IMG/VR virus record: IMGVR_UViG_3300049734_000434
Location: 1 to 37,884 of that record
From: a virus
Reading direction: 5' to 3' (one strand)
DNA length: 37,884 nucleotides
Both the position numbers and the translations under genes were made by a program. The notes beneath the pieces were generated by a model. The model saw only the letters and a program-made list of their open reading frames with translations, was not told where the DNA came from and made no database searches. Shown here one piece after another: positions 16,539 to 37,884 of this stretch (position 1 is the first letter of the stretch; each line of letters begins with the position of its first letter).

Positions 16539-16753
16539 GGCCATTCCTCCCCCTCGTCCACGACTTTCACGCTACCACGTCCGGTTAGGTTGACTTGGCA
16601 CACATCTGGATCACCGGTGCGGAGGTGTTTGAGTAGTTGGCCGACGAGATTCCAGGCGCTCTTGTCGTCGATGGTCAGCGTAATCTGATCAACAACGACT
16701 TCCCCATCATAGAGCTCCTGCGGGTCCTCGGAGTAGTAAACACGCTTACCCAT
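16535..16753 (-). CDS. Small acidic protein (72 aa)
   Basis: ATG 16753 overlaps the terminase stop (TGATG) with GGAGG four bases before it. It begins MGKRVYYSEDPQELYDG, then a strand-helix pattern (VVVDQITLTIDD, SAWNLVGQLLKHL). A longer in-frame reading to 16861 lies over terminase and is rejected. No family is recognised. Location directly after TerL suggests a packaging accessory. Confidence 0.58.
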   Translation of the reverse strand: MGKRVYYSEDPQELYDGEVVVDQITLTIDDKSAWNLVGQLLKHLRTGDPDVCQVNLTGRGSVKVVDEGEEWP

Positions 16754-18306
16754 CAATCCTCCACCTGCGCGCGCCGCATCTGGCGGATGAGCTCGCGCTT
16801 GCGTGTCTGGCCGTAGGTCTCCCGAAGCGTGAGCTCGGGAGCTTCGACACTCTGCGCGCAAGCCAGGGCCATGGCCGAGGCCATATCACAGTGTCGGCCA
16901 CCGACGCGCGGGAACTCGATACGCACACCAGTGGCCATGAGCTTCTTCCGCACCCGCCGCAGGTCCTCGAGCAGCTCATCGTTAGGGGCGAGCACGATGC
17001 GCCGGTCAGCCACCAGCGTCTTCAACGACTCAAACATGTCGACCTTGATTGGCTGCGTGATGGTGGTGACCTCGAGCGCAAGCCCATGCTGCCGTGCAAG
17101 GTCCTTCAGCGCCGCGGCGCTCCACTGGTCGGTGTGCACCGTGGTGACGCGATAGGGGCGGAGGATGGTGGCGATCCTGCCGAGCACCTCATCCGGCGAC
17201 AGCGGCGGCTCCCACGACCGCGCCAGCGCCACGCTCAGCACATCACCCCAACGCTCATCAGGAACGCGCGTCACCACCACCAGCGAGAATGCATCCGCTT
17301 GTGCAGCAGGGTCGATGGCTGCGACGAAGTCCAGGTGCTCGCTCGGCTGAATCTCCGCTGGCGCGCGACGACACAAGCTCTCGAGCTCCCACGCACCGAA
17401 GAGCGACGACTCTGCGTCTGCGAATTCGCCGAGCACGTCAGTGCGGAAGGCAATCGGGTCCCTCCGCTTCAGCGCTTCGCACTCCTCCGACGTCCAATGC
17501 TCCGGCCACATCGCTGGCCCCGTCGCACGCATCACCACGACGTCCCTGGTCGGCTTCCCGAAGTGCTCCTTCACCACCTTGAACGCTGGCCCGAATGGCG
17601 CCCATGGTGAGCCAATCGCCGCTATCTGCGCACCGGGGAGCAGGCGACCGATGACACCGCGCCTCGCATCGTCGAAGTTGATGACACCGTCCTCGCTCCC
17701 CACCATGCGCGGAAACTCGTCGAAGATGGCACCAGCACTCCAGCGTGCGACGAGAGATGCGCCTGCGCGTGAGCCAGCCACGACGCGAATCTCTATCGGC
17801 ACGCCACTCGGGTGCATCAGCGTGAGCCCATCGGCCACGGGGTCGCCCATGACGAGCTCTGCGAGACGCCGGCTGCGTTGCACTGCACCAAAAAGATGCT
17901 GAAGCACGACGGTCGCGAGGTCGAGCTTGAGCGACACCACTGACACGCGCGCAATCTCTCCAGTGCGCAGCGTGGACACGTCACACGTCTGCGATGCGCG
18001 CACTGCAAGCGCAGCGGCAAGCAAGCTCTTGGCTGTGCGGATAGCCGCAAGCAAGTAGAGCTCGAGCGGTTGCTCTTCGGGTGGCCTCGCTCCGCCGAAC
18101 GCCGTTTGCACATCGTCGCGGTGCCAGAGCTCACCGAGCGGCAGACCGTCGGCTACACGACAGATGGCACGCTGCAATGGTGACGCCGTCTCGAGCCCGA
18201 ACCACTCGGTGCTCGTCAGCACTTCCTCGAGCGTGAGACGCTTGTCGTCGACCGCCTGACGCTGCATCGCCTCATGAAAGGCACGGGCTAGGGCGATGTC
18301 GGTCAT
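16753..18306 (-). CDS. terL: Terminase large subunit (517 aa)
   Basis: The DNA-packaging motor ATPase and nuclease. From ATG 18306 (ATGA overlap; GTG 18321 is an alternative): a Walker-A-like AAIRTAKSLL at 87-96, deviant but with the Lys-Ser; Walker B AGAIFDE at 191-197 with catalytic Glu; the coupling motif IGSPW at 231-235; then an RNase-H-type nuclease with Asp332 (FVAAIDP), Asp393 (VHTDQW) and Asp474 (HCDMASA). Length is in the normal 450-600 range. It is followed at once by small packaging-module genes and the portal. Confidence 0.88.
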   Translation of the reverse strand: MTDIALARAFHEAMQRQAVDDKRLTLEEVLTSTEWFGLETASPLQRAICRVADGLPLGELWHRDDVQTAFGGARPPEEQPLELYLLAAIRTAKSLLAAALAVRASQTCDVSTLRTGEIARVSVVSLKLDLATVVLQHLFGAVQRSRRLAELVMGDPVADGLTLMHPSGVPIEIRVVAGSRAGASLVARWSAGAIFDEFPRMVGSEDGVINFDDARRGVIGRLLPGAQIAAIGSPWAPFGPAFKVVKEHFGKPTRDVVVMRATGPAMWPEHWTSEECEALKRRDPIAFRTDVLGEFADAESSLFGAWELESLCRRAPAEIQPSEHLDFVAAIDPAAQADAFSLVVVTRVPDERWGDVLSVALARSWEPPLSPDEVLGRIATILRPYRVTTVHTDQWSAAALKDLARQHGLALEVTTITQPIKVDMFESLKTLVADRRIVLAPNDELLEDLRRVRKKLMATGVRIEFPRVGGRHCDMASAMALACAQSVEAPELTLRETYGQTRKRELIRQMRRAQVED

Positions 18307-18569
18307 CGCATCTTGCGCCACACCTCGGTCAAGATGTTGTCGGCCTCTTCGCTAAACGTCTTGGCATGCCCGAGCCGATAACGAATGGGTCCAGCAAACA
18401 CCTTCACTGCGGTAGCTCCGCAGGCGCACTCCACATACGCCTTGTGGTACACGCGATCGAGCTCTATGCGGATGTGAGCATCGCTACTCCCGCAACAGAA
18501 GCACACGTACTGCGGCATGCTCTCCATGAGCATATCGTGCACCGCTGATGTGACATCTTCGTCAGTCAC
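18303..18569 (-). CDS. Zinc-ribbon-like small protein upstream of TerL (88 aa)
   Basis: GTG 18569 overlaps the preceding stop (GTGA) and lies at the end of a 31-base repeat that supplies GGGAG as ribosome site. Cys23, Cys25, Cys26 and Cys48, Cys50 (YVCFCCG and VECACG) form a probable zinc ribbon. The C-terminal half is helical. It may bind DNA or TerL, but it does not look like a classical small terminase. Confidence 0.6.
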   Translation of the reverse strand: MTDEDVTSAVHDMLMESMPQYVCFCCGSSDAHIRIELDRVYHKAYVECACGATAVKVFAGPIRYRLGHAKTFSEEADNILTEVWRKMR

Positions 18570-29861: not shown

Positions 29862-30034
29862 GACAACCTCTCGCCGCAATCCGGGCAGCGCCGCTGCAAC
29901 TCACCATCCCAGTGGTACCGGTGATCGCCCAGCCGGCAGCACACCTTCCGAAACAGCCACATCGCAGCCACGCGCGCCGCTCCCTCGACGATGTCGCGGA
30001 TGATGTGGCCGGTGGAGTAGCCGAGGAGAATCAT
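29858..30034 (-). CDS. Small zinc-ribbon protein (58 aa)
   Basis: ATG 30034 (ATGA overlap) to TGA 29858 (GTGA overlap). MILLGYSTGHIIRDIVE is an N-terminal helix; then KVCCRLGDHRYHW and RRCPDCGERLS bring CC/H and CxxC ligands, the common phage zinc-ribbon pattern C-x3-(G/D)-H-x-(Y/W)...CxxCG. Likely a small transcription- or host-interaction factor. Confidence 0.62.
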   Translation of the reverse strand: MILLGYSTGHIIRDIVEGAARVAAMWLFRKVCCRLGDHRYHWDGELQRRCPDCGERLS

Positions 30035-30498
30035 GTGCCGTCGACCGCCTTTGCTTCTGCCAATAGCTCCACCAAGAGGGTCAATTGGTCATCGAGCAGA
30101 AGGGTGTCGAGGGCAGCCTCGAGCATGACCTTGACCCGGGCGCGCTTTCTGGCTCGTTCAATCTCCAGTTGCAGCTCGCGCGAGAGCTCCGGTGAGAAGT
30201 GGTCGAGCCCAAGGCATCGGCGTCCTGCTCGCGACACCGTGAGACCGCGGGCCTTGGTCTCTTCACGACGAATCAAGCCGCGCCGCTCGAGAGCCCGAAG
30301 GTGATCGTTGACACCGTTGGTGCTTCGGATCCCGATGTGCCCACCAATCTCCCTCATGGTCGGCGGCCATCCAAACTTCTCCACCGTGTCGTGGATGAAT
30401 CGCAACACCGCCAGCTGCCTTTCCGTCGGAGGCCGCATCGAAAACACCGGAGCCGGCAGATCGGCCGATGCAGGGATACCCATATGTTCACCATTCAT
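30031..30498 (-). CDS. LexA-like DNA-binding protein without peptidase domain (155 aa)
   Basis: TERQLAVLRFIHDTVEKFGW, PPTMREIGGHIGIRSTNGV and NDHLRALERRGLIRREE match the LexA N-terminal winged helix. The C-terminal half is a charged helix pair and leucine-rich end (ALDTLLLDDQLTLLVELL), not the Ser-Lys autoprotease, so it cannot cleave itself. ATG 30498 is the start implied by an ATGA overlap with the frame before; ATG 30483 is an alternative. It may bind SOS-type or its own operators; a 7-base-arm palindrome lies at 30,536-30,551. Confidence 0.7.
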   Translation of the reverse strand: MNGEHMGIPASADLPAPVFSMRPPTERQLAVLRFIHDTVEKFGWPPTMREIGGHIGIRSTNGVNDHLRALERRGLIRREETKARGLTVSRAGRRCLGLDHFSPELSRELQLEIERARKRARVKVMLEAALDTLLLDDQLTLLVELLAEAKAVDGT

Positions 30499-30692
30499 CG
30501 GCATTCGACGAATACCCCAATGGCTGCGCATGCCAATGAATGACCATTCATCGGACGACCATCCGCGCGTGCAGGTGAGCAGCTATGGGCGCGCATGGGT
30601 GCGTACCTATTTTTGCGCTCACCACCTGTGCACTCTGAACAGCCGAGCCGTGGCGAAAAGGAAACGTCGAGCACATGCTTGCTTTTCGTCAT
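30495..30692 (-). CDS. Possible small Cys-containing protein (65 aa)
   Basis: ATG 30692 has GAGG about eight bases before it and begins 10 bases after the preceding stop. The TGA overlaps ATG 30498 of the LexA-like gene. It starts MTKSKHVLDVSFSPRLG with a CSEC pair; the rest looks poorly structured, and the palindrome at 30,536-30,551 lies within. It may instead be a leader region. Confidence 0.35.
   Translation of the reverse strand: MTKSKHVLDVSFSPRLGCSECTGGERKNRYAPMRAHSCSPARADGRPMNGHSLACAAIGVFVECR
30536..30551. promoter_or_regulatory. Palindrome ATGAATG-AC-CATTCAT, possible operator
   Basis: Perfect 7-base arms around AC. The related word CCATTCATCGG occurs at 30,491-30,501 and 30,544-30,554, so two half-sites flank the LexA-like gene start. 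A binding site for that protein is the simplest reading. Confidence 0.45.
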
Positions 30693-35080: not shown

Positions 35081-37066
35081 TCACATCGCCGCGAGTACCA
35101 GGTCGAGATACTCATCCCACGGCCAGCGCGAATCCGTCGCCCCACCAGGGTCCACGTGCGAGCTCTTCTTGTACGCGAGCGACACCGCCGCATGCGACGT
35201 GATGCCGCGTGCGCCGGCTAAGAGCTGCTCATGGTCGACACGCACCGGTGGAATGCTGAGCTCGCGACATAGCGTTGCCACCAGCATCGCGCTACGGGTG
35301 AGCACGGCCCGCCCAGCCGTGTCGCCCTTGCCATTCTTCAGCCAGTCGGTGCGCAGCGCCTGGCCAACCTGCTCCACCTGCACCCCGTCGTGATTCGCAC
35401 CTGGAGCTGCCCAGGCAGCATGCTCAAGCGGAACGCATGCGATCACTTCCTCGGGCCCGACAACGAAGTGCGCGCTTGCTCGCGGCGCAGACGGCCCACC
35501 AAACCAGCGAGCCACGTTGCGCGCCACACCGGTGCGTACGGGGTTTTCTGTGCTGTGAAGGACGATGAGCCGGATGCTCTCGAGCGGTCGCTTTGCCGCC
35601 GTGTAGTTCTTGGCGAGGATGGTGTCAGCGACGAGCTCGGCGAGCTCTGGAATCACCACCGGCATCCTGTCCGTGTCGTGTTCCCGCGGCACCATCGGCG
35701 GCGGCGGTATCACCGGTGTCGAGCTCATTGCCTCCGGTGTCGCTGGCGATGTCACCGGTGTGCTCGGTGGATACTTCTCGAAGCCGCCATCCACGTCGCG
35801 CACGGCGTACCCGAGCTGCGAATTGTGAGATAGCAGACCCTCGGCGATCAGCGTTCCTGTACTGGTGCCAACGCCGATGACGGGGCGCGGTCCCAGGGGG
35901 CGTATCGACAGAATTTCCGCCGGTGGCGACTTGGAGCTGTAGCACCGGCTTCCCTCCCACAGCGTGGCGCTCTTCGCGAGCAGGCGAATTGGACGGAAGG
36001 TACCGATTGCGCGCATTCCTGCGCGTGCTCCGGTTGGGCACACCCTCATGCATCCGTACTTGTTGGCCTGAGCAGAAGTGGGCATGCCTGCTCGTGCGAA
36101 GAGTTGCAGTGCTCGGTCCAGAAGCGCGCCCGGGTTCTGCCCAACTCCGAATGTGCGACCACTGCACCACCCCTCACCATCAAGAAACCCGGCCATCCAT
36201 GCGCCATCCCATGACGTGTCCTGCTCCCACGGCTGACAGAGGTACGGGATCATGTCTCCCACTCGCAGAGATGCCGTGTGCGTCCACCTGAGATTGGAGC
36301 GAGAAATCTGCTTGCCGGTGGGCGTGCGACGCCTAGTAGTCGGCCACCTATGCTCGGCACTTGCCACCACGGTCGCCGCCGATGTGGCAATCTCGAAGCA
36401 CTCCGCGATCGTCTGAGACACCGACAGAACGGCCGAGCGTCGCAAGCGGCAGTTGTGCCCCAGTGACTCATCGAATCCAATGAGCTCGTCCCCTAGTCCC
36501 AGCCCGGCCACCGGTACCCATCGCAGGTCTGACGTAAGCACCCTTGTGTCCGGGGCTAGGCAGTAATCGACATGGTCAGGCCCGTGTGCCGCCCCCGGCG
36601 GCTGAATGACGTAGCCATCGCCGCTAACGTTCTTGTGCACCTTGATGCCTCGCCACTTGGCCTCACCACCGACGTGGCGCACTTCTCCGATGGGGACTTT
36701 CCAGCCGTAGTTGACCGCACCCTTTTCGCGAATGCGCGGGTGAGCAATCCACGTCTTCCCCGCGCACACCGTCTGCTCTGGGAAGCGCCTGGCGTGCCTG
36801 ATGTCGTCATCGAGCGCTGTGAACGCAGCCAGCTCTGGGTCGCGCGGCGTGGGATCGACGAGCACGTCTGCCTCGCGCGCAATAGCGTCGAACTCCTCAG
36901 CGGTGGGAAGGCGGGCGTAGAGGAGCAGACACCAACCCTCCTGCTCCCTCGCGGTCATGGCTGTGACCACACCATCTTTCTCGTACGGCCCGCAGACCTC
37001 GATGTACCGCGGGCTCTCGTCCACCCGACACGTCCACCAATGGGAGTCGTGCTCGCCGTAGGTCAC
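35081..37066 (-). CDS. Endolysin: N-acetylmuramoyl-L-alanine amidase interrupted by an intein (661 aa)
   Basis: Cell-wall hydrolase for lysis. GTG 37066 overlaps the upstream stop (GTGA). Residues 1-168 plus 416-430 form an N-terminal domain (AVNYGWKVP, YVIQPPGAAHGPDHVDY joined to SQLGYAV) that I cannot name. Pro/Thr-rich linker 433-465. Residues 495-650 are an Amidase_2 domain: IVLHSTEN with His504, ASAHFVVG with His533, ITSHAAV with His625 and HVDPGG with Asp639, the likely zinc ligands and active site. Residues 169-415 are an intein; spliced enzyme about 414 residues. It has no signal peptide, so it would need a holin or other export. Confidence 0.85.
   Translation of the reverse strand: MTYGEHDSHWWTCRVDESPRYIEVCGPYEKDGVVTAMTAREQEGWCLLLYARLPTAEEFDAIAREADVLVDPTPRDPELAAFTALDDDIRHARRFPEQTVCAGKTWIAHPRIREKGAVNYGWKVPIGEVRHVGGEAKWRGIKVHKNVSGDGYVIQPPGAAHGPDHVDYCLAPDTRVLTSDLRWVPVAGLGLGDELIGFDESLGHNCRLRRSAVLSVSQTIAECFEIATSAATVVASAEHRWPTTRRRTPTGKQISRSNLRWTHTASLRVGDMIPYLCQPWEQDTSWDGAWMAGFLDGEGWCSGRTFGVGQNPGALLDRALQLFARAGMPTSAQANKYGCMRVCPTGARAGMRAIGTFRPIRLLAKSATLWEGSRCYSSKSPPAEILSIRPLGPRPVIGVGTSTGTLIAEGLLSHNSQLGYAVRDVDGGFEKYPPSTPVTSPATPEAMSSTPVIPPPPMVPREHDTDRMPVVIPELAELVADTILAKNYTAAKRPLESIRLIVLHSTENPVRTGVARNVARWFGGPSAPRASAHFVVGPEEVIACVPLEHAAWAAPGANHDGVQVEQVGQALRTDWLKNGKGDTAGRAVLTRSAMLVATLCRELSIPPVRVDHEQLLAGARGITSHAAVSLAYKKSSHVDPGGATDSRWPWDEYLDLVLAAM
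35822..36562 (-). mobile_element. Intein in the endolysin (247 aa)
   Basis: Splicing block A begins at Cys169 (CLAPDTRVLTSDLRWVP). Block B is VVASAEHRW with His239. A DOD-type homing-endonuclease motif is AWMAGFLDGEGW (289-300). Block F is VIGVGTSTGTLIAEG and the end LLSHN at 411-415 with splice-junction His-Asn followed by Ser416. All residues for class 1 splicing are present. At 247 residues it is short for a two-motif LAGLIDADG intein, and I see only one clear endonuclease motif, so homing may be reduced. The host site DHVDY/SQLGY is in the N-terminal domain, not the catalytic amidase. Confidence 0.88.
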
Positions 37067-37695
37067 GTGCTGCCCTTCGCCACGACCGCCACCACTTCCA
37101 CCACGGGCTTATTGAGCAGCTGCCGTGCACGCTCGTAGCTGCGCACGCGGGCGCGGATGCGCTTGTCTTTCGAGTGCGTGGGTAGGCCACCGTAGCAAGC
37201 TACCGCGCAGGCAAAGTCGGTGGTGCCGACGATGCGGGCGCAGTAGCCGCGGGCGCGGGTTAGGTCGTCTGCGATGGTGACGATGGCTCGGCGGGTGGAG
37301 ACGATGTCGAGTCCAACGATGTCCGCGCAGCGGAATCCGCGGTGTGTAGCACCCCGATCCCCAAGAAGACGTTGACCAACTCCGCAGCTTCGGCCTCTGT
37401 CTCCTTTGGCGTGCTTCCCGACGCCGCTATGGACGTCCTTCCGCATACCACTCTCTCCATGGACGACGGCCAAGATGCGCGCAGCCAAGTCCCTGCTCCC
37501 ACCACTCACCTCCGCTATCGCCTGAGCAACCACCGCGTACCGCGCGCGCCCCTCCTCCTCCGTCTCGCGTCGACACCCGCGCGTGTACTCGGTGTCGCAG
37601 ACAACACCCGGCTCGACGGCCACGGCGCTGTAGCTGCTCCGGCCAGCCGGCTGGAGCGACAGCATCGCCGCGAGGATGAGCTCGGCCAACGTCAT
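37063..37695 (-). CDS. Secreted lytic-transglycosylase-like protein (210 aa)
   Basis: ATG 37695 overlaps the preceding stop (ATGA). MTLAELILAAMLSLQPAG is a possible signal or anchor segment. The middle (about 55-120) has ILAVVHGESGMRKDVHSG and GDRGRSCGVGQ, the Glu-Ser and GxxQ landmarks of SLT/lysozyme-like folds. The catalytic Glu would be Glu80. It precedes the amidase, so it probably gives a second wall-cleaving activity or aids DNA entry. Family call is tentative. Confidence 0.62.
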   Translation of the reverse strand: MTLAELILAAMLSLQPAGRSSYSAVAVEPGVVCDTEYTRGCRRETEEEGRARYAVVAQAIAEVSGGSRDLAARILAVVHGESGMRKDVHSGVGKHAKGDRGRSCGVGQRLLGDRGATHRGFRCADIVGLDIVSTRRAIVTIADDLTRARGYCARIVGTTDFACAVACYGGLPTHSKDKRIRARVRSYERARQLLNKPVVEVVAVVAKGST

Positions 37696-37884
37696 GAGCC
37701 GAGCCGATGAGCCATCACATCCGGCGGCGGCAACGCCAGCGGCCCCGGCTCCGGCCCCGACGACTCCGCCCCACCATCCGGTGGCTTGCCATCGAGAATG
37801 CGCAGCGCCTTGAGCAAGTCGAACAGCTCCGCGTAGGCCTCGAGCGCCTTCGTGCGCGCAGCGGCCAGGTCGCCTTTCTCCCCG
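37692..37884 (-). CDS. Open frame at right edge, likely 3' end of the left-edge virion gene
   Basis: Read in from 37,883 the frame gives GEKGDLAAARTKALEAYAEL, FDLLKALRILDGK, then an acidic Pro/Gly stretch, and stops at TGA 37,692, overlapping ATG 37695. It has no start of its own in the window. Joined to position 1, it continues the 1-2003 gene in frame and adds 63 residues. This is either that gene's end in a circular genome or the end of a separate gene cut by the window. Confidence 0.6.
   Translation of the reverse strand, partial: GEKGDLAAARTKALEAYAELFDLLKALRILDGKPPDGGAESSGPEPGPLALPPPDVMAHRLGS

Follow-up and report, generated by a model that had tools for sequence, protein, structure and literature searches.

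The window, meaning the whole stretch of DNA analysed here, is a 37,884-base IMG/VR record with a GC content of 64%, and the contig ends among lysis genes. Genes for an integrase, a terminase and a LexA-like regulator were recognised in it, along with a weak match to an SU10-type portal, so that the virus is probably a tailed phage with a temperate lifestyle. Near the contig end, a stop-free minus-strand open reading frame of 661 codons (35081-37066) encodes a lysin whose parts are arranged as N-terminal domain, intein, Pro-rich linker and Amidase_2 domain. Its GTG start codon shares the letters GTGA with the stop codon of the upstream gene. The following features were assigned, with residue numbers referring to the precursor protein.

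35081..37066, minus strand: lysin gene, 661-aa precursor (414 aa if spliced), from ORF reading and Pfam scan
36563..37066, minus strand: N-extein (residues 1-168) with the bulk of the N-terminal domain (NYGW ... HVDY), from alignment with relatives
35822..36562, minus strand: intein, residues 169-415, 247 aa, class 1 (Cys1 ... His-Asn / Ser+1), from alignments and profiles
36518..36562, minus strand: intein block A, CLAPDTRVLTSDLRW (169-183), with nucleophile Cys169, from alignment
36344..36376, minus strand: intein block B, ATVVASAEHRW (231-241), from alignment
35978..36208, minus strand: LAGLIDADG-type endonuclease region with a single motif, AGFLDGEG (block C) to GTFRPIRLL, from alignment and profile
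35822..35884, minus strand: intein blocks F and G, PVIGVGTSTGTLIAEGLLSHN (395-415), from alignment
35783..35821, minus strand: start of the C-extein, SQLGYAVRDVDGG (416-428), the remaining N-terminal domain, shorter than in homologues, from alignment
35660..35773, minus strand: Pro/Thr-rich linker (432-469), from sequence reading
35144..35578, minus strand: Amidase_2 domain (497-641), Pfam E=1.3e-12
37063..37695, minus strand: upstream gene for a 210-aa protein, recognised by eye only as lytic-transglycosylase/lysozyme-like (HGESG ... GDRGRSCGVGQ)
37692-37884: incomplete ORF at the edge of the contig (GEKGDLAAARTKALEAYAELFDLLKAL...), which by eye looks like the C-terminal end of the lipobox lipoproteins that lie upstream of the lysin in the homologous loci L004 and L005

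The 210-aa upstream gene occupies the same position as an SLT-like gene in L004 and gave no match in Pfam or PHROGs. In both L004 and L005, lipoprotein, holin-like and SLT-like genes (recognised by eye) precede the amidase gene; among these neighbours only the SLT gene of L005 scored in Pfam (6.6e-7). The truncated ORF is possibly a spanin-like gene. Elsewhere in the window, a LexA DNA-binding domain was found at 30031-30531 (Pfam E=3.2e-22) in a protein whose C-terminal part has no LexA peptidase match, and a terminase large subunit at 16753-18321 gave a weak PHROG match (E=2.7e-7). The other structural candidates of the window scanned against PHROGs had no match. Judged by these weak or absent matches of its structural genes, the virus is a member of a poorly sampled phage lineage.

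The Amidase_2 domain matched its Pfam model with 48.7 bits against a curated cut-off of 26. In the predicted model of the precursor, the structures nearest to the amidase part were PlyL (Z 16.9), LytA (16.8) and XlyA, at Z scores of 16-17, and a fold search with the whole-precursor model returned amidases and related PGRPs only. Placed by motif position, the zinc ligands are probably His504, His625 and Asp639. An amidase domain with probable H/H/D ligands is common to the window protein and to the phage Amidase_2 endolysins PlyL, XlyA and phrog_12609, whereas the N-terminal domain of the window protein represents an unlisted family and is interrupted by the intein. Judged by the amidase domain and the neighbouring genes, the lysin is a putative endolysin. 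At the position of the linker, two homologues (L005 and L022) contain a PG_binding_1-like domain at subthreshold scores and L004 contains a similar segment. The initial annotation had described an intein in the N-terminal domain of an amidase lysin. The gene does encode a lysin of this type; its amidase forms a domain of its own towards the C-terminus, approximately 80 residues downstream of the intein junction, and the part of the protein that hosts the intein is the N-terminal domain.

The intein segment is in frame with the lysin and contains no stop. All standard class-1 splicing residues are intact, namely Cys1, the block B His, the penultimate His, Asn and Ser+1. Block B reads SAEH, with the His kept and a Ser where the Thr of TxxH is commoner, and the same holds for the inteins of the phage contig L001 and of Gordonia phage Newt. 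The C-terminal stretch TSTGTLIAEGLLSHN ends in LLSHN (His414-Asn415) and is followed by Ser416 as the +1 residue; this Ser is native to intein-free relatives and thus belongs to the host protein. Block C reads AGFLDGEGW, the acidic residue is present in the LAGLIDADG-type motif AGFLDGEG, and profile matches were obtained to I-MsoI, I-HjeMI and I-AniI. Across the intein, AlphaFold modelled the whole precursor poorly (pLDDT 25-85). The GC3 value of the intein is 0.68, compared with 0.76-0.78 for its flanks, a weak sign that points towards mobility.

When 50,697 phage records were searched in six frames at the protein level, full-length relatives of the intein (1-247) turned up at E<=0.01 in 137 of them, 120 from Mycobacterium and 17 from Gordonia phages. 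The matches in Mycobacterium phages were terminase-like proteins (37-38% identity, best E 1e-37) and those in Gordonia phages were portal proteins (32% identity, E about 1e-20). The NCBIfam model of the intein-containing Rv2578c (NF038136) matched the segment 1-247 with E=4.8e-10; the 700-bit threshold of this model covers the whole host protein and is therefore not expected to be reached by an intein alone. With a profile of four inteins, the ends matched the solved inteins DnaB (2.7e-4), gp41-1 (9e-4) and Mxe GyrA (1e-3), and the middle matched LAGLIDADG enzymes. The Pfam Hint/intein and LAGLIDADG models gave no score on the window sequence, and the Pfam models reached the Gordonia relative weakly. 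Sequence comparison confirmed residues 169-415 as a complete class-1 intein, with chance similarity excluded. The element had been proposed from Cys169, SAEHRW, LLSHN and Ser+1, and its boundaries at 35822-36562 proved exact; the intein profiles recognised it in the form of the NCBIfam and four-intein models and not in that of the Pfam Hint/intein models.

The class-1 intein of the terminase-like protein gp248 of Mycobacterium phage Ngannou aligns end to end over 247 residues and is 38% identical to the window intein. Inteins of this type and the window intein have the same single-motif LAGLIDADG-type middle and the ending TSTxTxxAEGLL(S/T)HN, but the Ngannou host is a DNA-packaging ATPase-like protein rather than a lysis protein and the insertion site differs as well. 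From its cluster and annotation, the Ngannou protein corresponds to Pham3880, whose 'terminase-like' inteins occur in cluster C1 mycobacteriophages according to Kelley et al. (2016, PMC5050341); the window intein is approximately 20 aa shorter than these. The inteins of Rv2578c-type radical-SAM proteins have the start CLAPDTxVL, the block B (S/T)AEHRW and the end TSTGTxxAxGLxxHN, as does the window intein, but they differ in host protein and use Cys as the +1 residue instead of Ser. The Newt portal intein is a full-length homologue (32% identity) that likewise differs in host protein and has Thr at +1. Related inteins were also detected in three of the 284 Myxococcota genomes searched, and in both cases read the host was an Rv2578c-type radical-SAM protein. 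Because relatives are found in Myxococcota as well as in actinophages, soil bacteria or actinophages are a possible source of the window intein.

IMG/VR records and chromosomes of Sorangium cellulosum contain intein-free relatives of the N-terminal domain. The domain spans about 250 aa in these relatives, in which K-x-W, N-x-G-W, Q, H and HVDYSQ are invariant; by comparison the window copy is shorter at either end. With the motif GKxW...N[YF]GW...Q...H..HVDYSQ, it recurs at these positions:

L004, 4599-6125
L005, 2085-3620
L007, 4581-5384
L011, 4932-5675
window, 36563-37066

The HVDY-SQ sequence was uninterrupted in 12 of the 12 intein-free loci compared. Three of these (L004, L005 and L022) have the same domain order as the window protein, with the N-terminal domain followed by the amidase, while L006-L010 and the Sorangium loci L011-L014 encode stand-alone N-domain proteins. 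After in silico splicing of the query, the alignment with L004 extended across the junction (residues 31-175) and its E value improved from 3e-18 to 1e-20. Intein-free homologues therefore align without a break over the junction, and the refuting outcome named for them in the initial annotation did not occur. A second copy of the intein was detected at the same codon in L001 (IMG/VR contig 3300028920_000035, 147 kb), where the host is a stand-alone N-domain protein with no amidase. Identity between the two inteins is 58% and 73% in the two parts that align, against 26% between their N-exteins, and most of the endonuclease region of L001 (approximately 60 residues) is deleted. L007, which shares 45% identity with L001 in the N-terminal domain, has a similar arrangement and no intein; the gene that follows its N-domain gene resembles part of the next gene in L001. 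An intein search of IMG/VR yielded L001 and no further copy, and the DNA pattern HVDYC-[LV..]-[AST]-P, run over IMG/VR, recovered L001 and two chance matches only, of which one lay in a portal-like protein and the other in a spurious ORF. Only two genomes, the window and L001, are known to have an intein at the HVDY/SQ site.

An intein similarity that exceeds host similarity, a patchy presence, a site in the most conserved motif and endonuclease decay together form the usual signature of a homing element. These observations very probably reflect the entry of a mobile class-1 intein into HVDY/SQ, the most conserved motif of an accessory lysis-protein domain, by endonuclease-driven homing or horizontal transfer. 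From the sequence we infer that the window intein splices and that its endonuclease cuts or once cut DNA, although the enzyme could by now be dead. Splicing would start with an attack of Cys169 on the Tyr168 peptide bond, the chain would be transferred to Ser416, Asn415 would then cyclise, and the product would be a 414-aa lysin composed of N-terminal domain, linker and amidase. The invaded HVDYSQ motif probably marks the functional centre of the N-terminal domain. As the insertion breaks a motif that is invariant in the relatives compared, the domain probably works only after splicing; an inactive unspliced domain would select for efficient splicing and would in this way keep the intein functional. 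Neither the sequence nor the comparisons made lent support to a regulatory role of the intein.

Such a role had been suggested tentatively in the initial annotation, in which splicing could act as a timer that keeps the lysin inactive until it is processed. In this reading lysin maturation would be delayed, the amidase would become active only after splicing and premature lysis would be avoided. This would require slow or conditional splicing together with an inactive amidase in the precursor. The interrupted motif does make the N-terminal domain of the precursor probably non-functional, and phage inteins have been argued to be able to tune the output of host proteins (Kelley et al. 2016, PMC5050341). 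However, the amidase is a distinct domain downstream of the junction, the N-terminal domain exists without an amidase, the same-codon intein of L001 interrupts an amidase-free protein, relatives of the same layout have no intein, and the complement of standard splicing residues is complete with a canonical penultimate His. No hint of slow or conditional splicing was detected in the splicing residues, the domain boundaries or the relatives of the same architecture. Lysis timing is normally set by the holin or by export control, not by enzyme maturation, and a timing function is considered highly unlikely. A splicing-defective element that cuts one junction without ligation would instead free the amidase (416-661) from the N-terminal domain; the C-terminal fragment would contain the linker and a complete amidase, and the Ser in place of Thr in block B could be read in this sense. 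With that Ser also present in two of the three other aligned inteins, all five splicing residues intact and the N-domain motif preserved on both sides of the junction, this outcome is difficult to credit. Equally slim is the chance of a domesticated intein that serves as a lysis switch, with conditional splicing gating the N-terminal domain until a late-infection cue lets the lysin bind or reach its target. An ordinary non-splicing insertion or another Hint domain (e.g. bacterial intein-like or hedgehog-like) has a negligible probability, since the weak matches to hedgehog Hint domains in the profile search (E 0.5-0.6) are opposed by the full-length alignment to phage inteins, the LAGLIDADG region in mid-segment, the identical insertion point in L001 and the exact empty sites.

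Phage inteins are known mainly from DNA-packaging, replication and nucleotide proteins. A lysin is an unusual home for such an element, and no case of an intein in an endolysin, lysin A, amidase or lysozyme was found in the open-access literature. The element is therefore regarded as one of a known kind in a host protein that is new for it, with any claim to priority limited to that literature. According to a survey of 224 mycobacteriophage endolysins, introns and inteins are absent from all of them (PMC3314691); in Kelley et al. (PMC5050341), the entries consulted in the intein host table include no lysin, and the word does not occur in the text. With a lysin as host, the range of inteins extends to cell-wall enzymes, in favour of the idea that homing inteins pick conserved motifs rather than functions. 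The finding also highlights an unlisted domain that occurs repeatedly within phage cell-wall hydrolases or next to them, both in large phages and in Sorangium.

Sequence searches with this N-terminal domain gave no match in Pfam, PHROGs or PDB and none in plasmids, and one distant phage match was obtained, to the 485-kb LR745208. The L007 protein (267 aa) was modelled with high confidence (pLDDT 89, pTM 0.89), and a Foldseek search of PDB and BFVD with this model yielded nothing at E<0.001. VIA-align of the same model gave Z scores of up to 8.2, and the matches listed were CarF, EgtB-type enzymes, Mtd, intimin, FGE and CTLDs, which we take to belong to the C-type-lectin fold. As VIA-align Z scores under 8 can reflect a common arrangement, a C-type-lectin-like fold of the N-terminal domain is regarded as likely but tentative. 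Four phages have the domain joined to an amidase, and in a second Sorangium protein, a putative transglycosylase, it is preceded by an SLT-like region (subthreshold, E=0.019). In L007 and L008 its gene adjoins or is near a gene for PG_binding plus M15 peptidase. This context of amidase, SLT-like and M15 hydrolases points to cell-wall lysis, in which the domain may act in cell-wall binding or positioning. Distant relatives with a signal-peptide-like start and the motif YGWH..G.PIQPLS.VHG..YADYSHGIRLV were observed in Myxococcota (L028, L030 and L032), and suggest that the N-terminal domain may be part of a wider bacterial superfamily.
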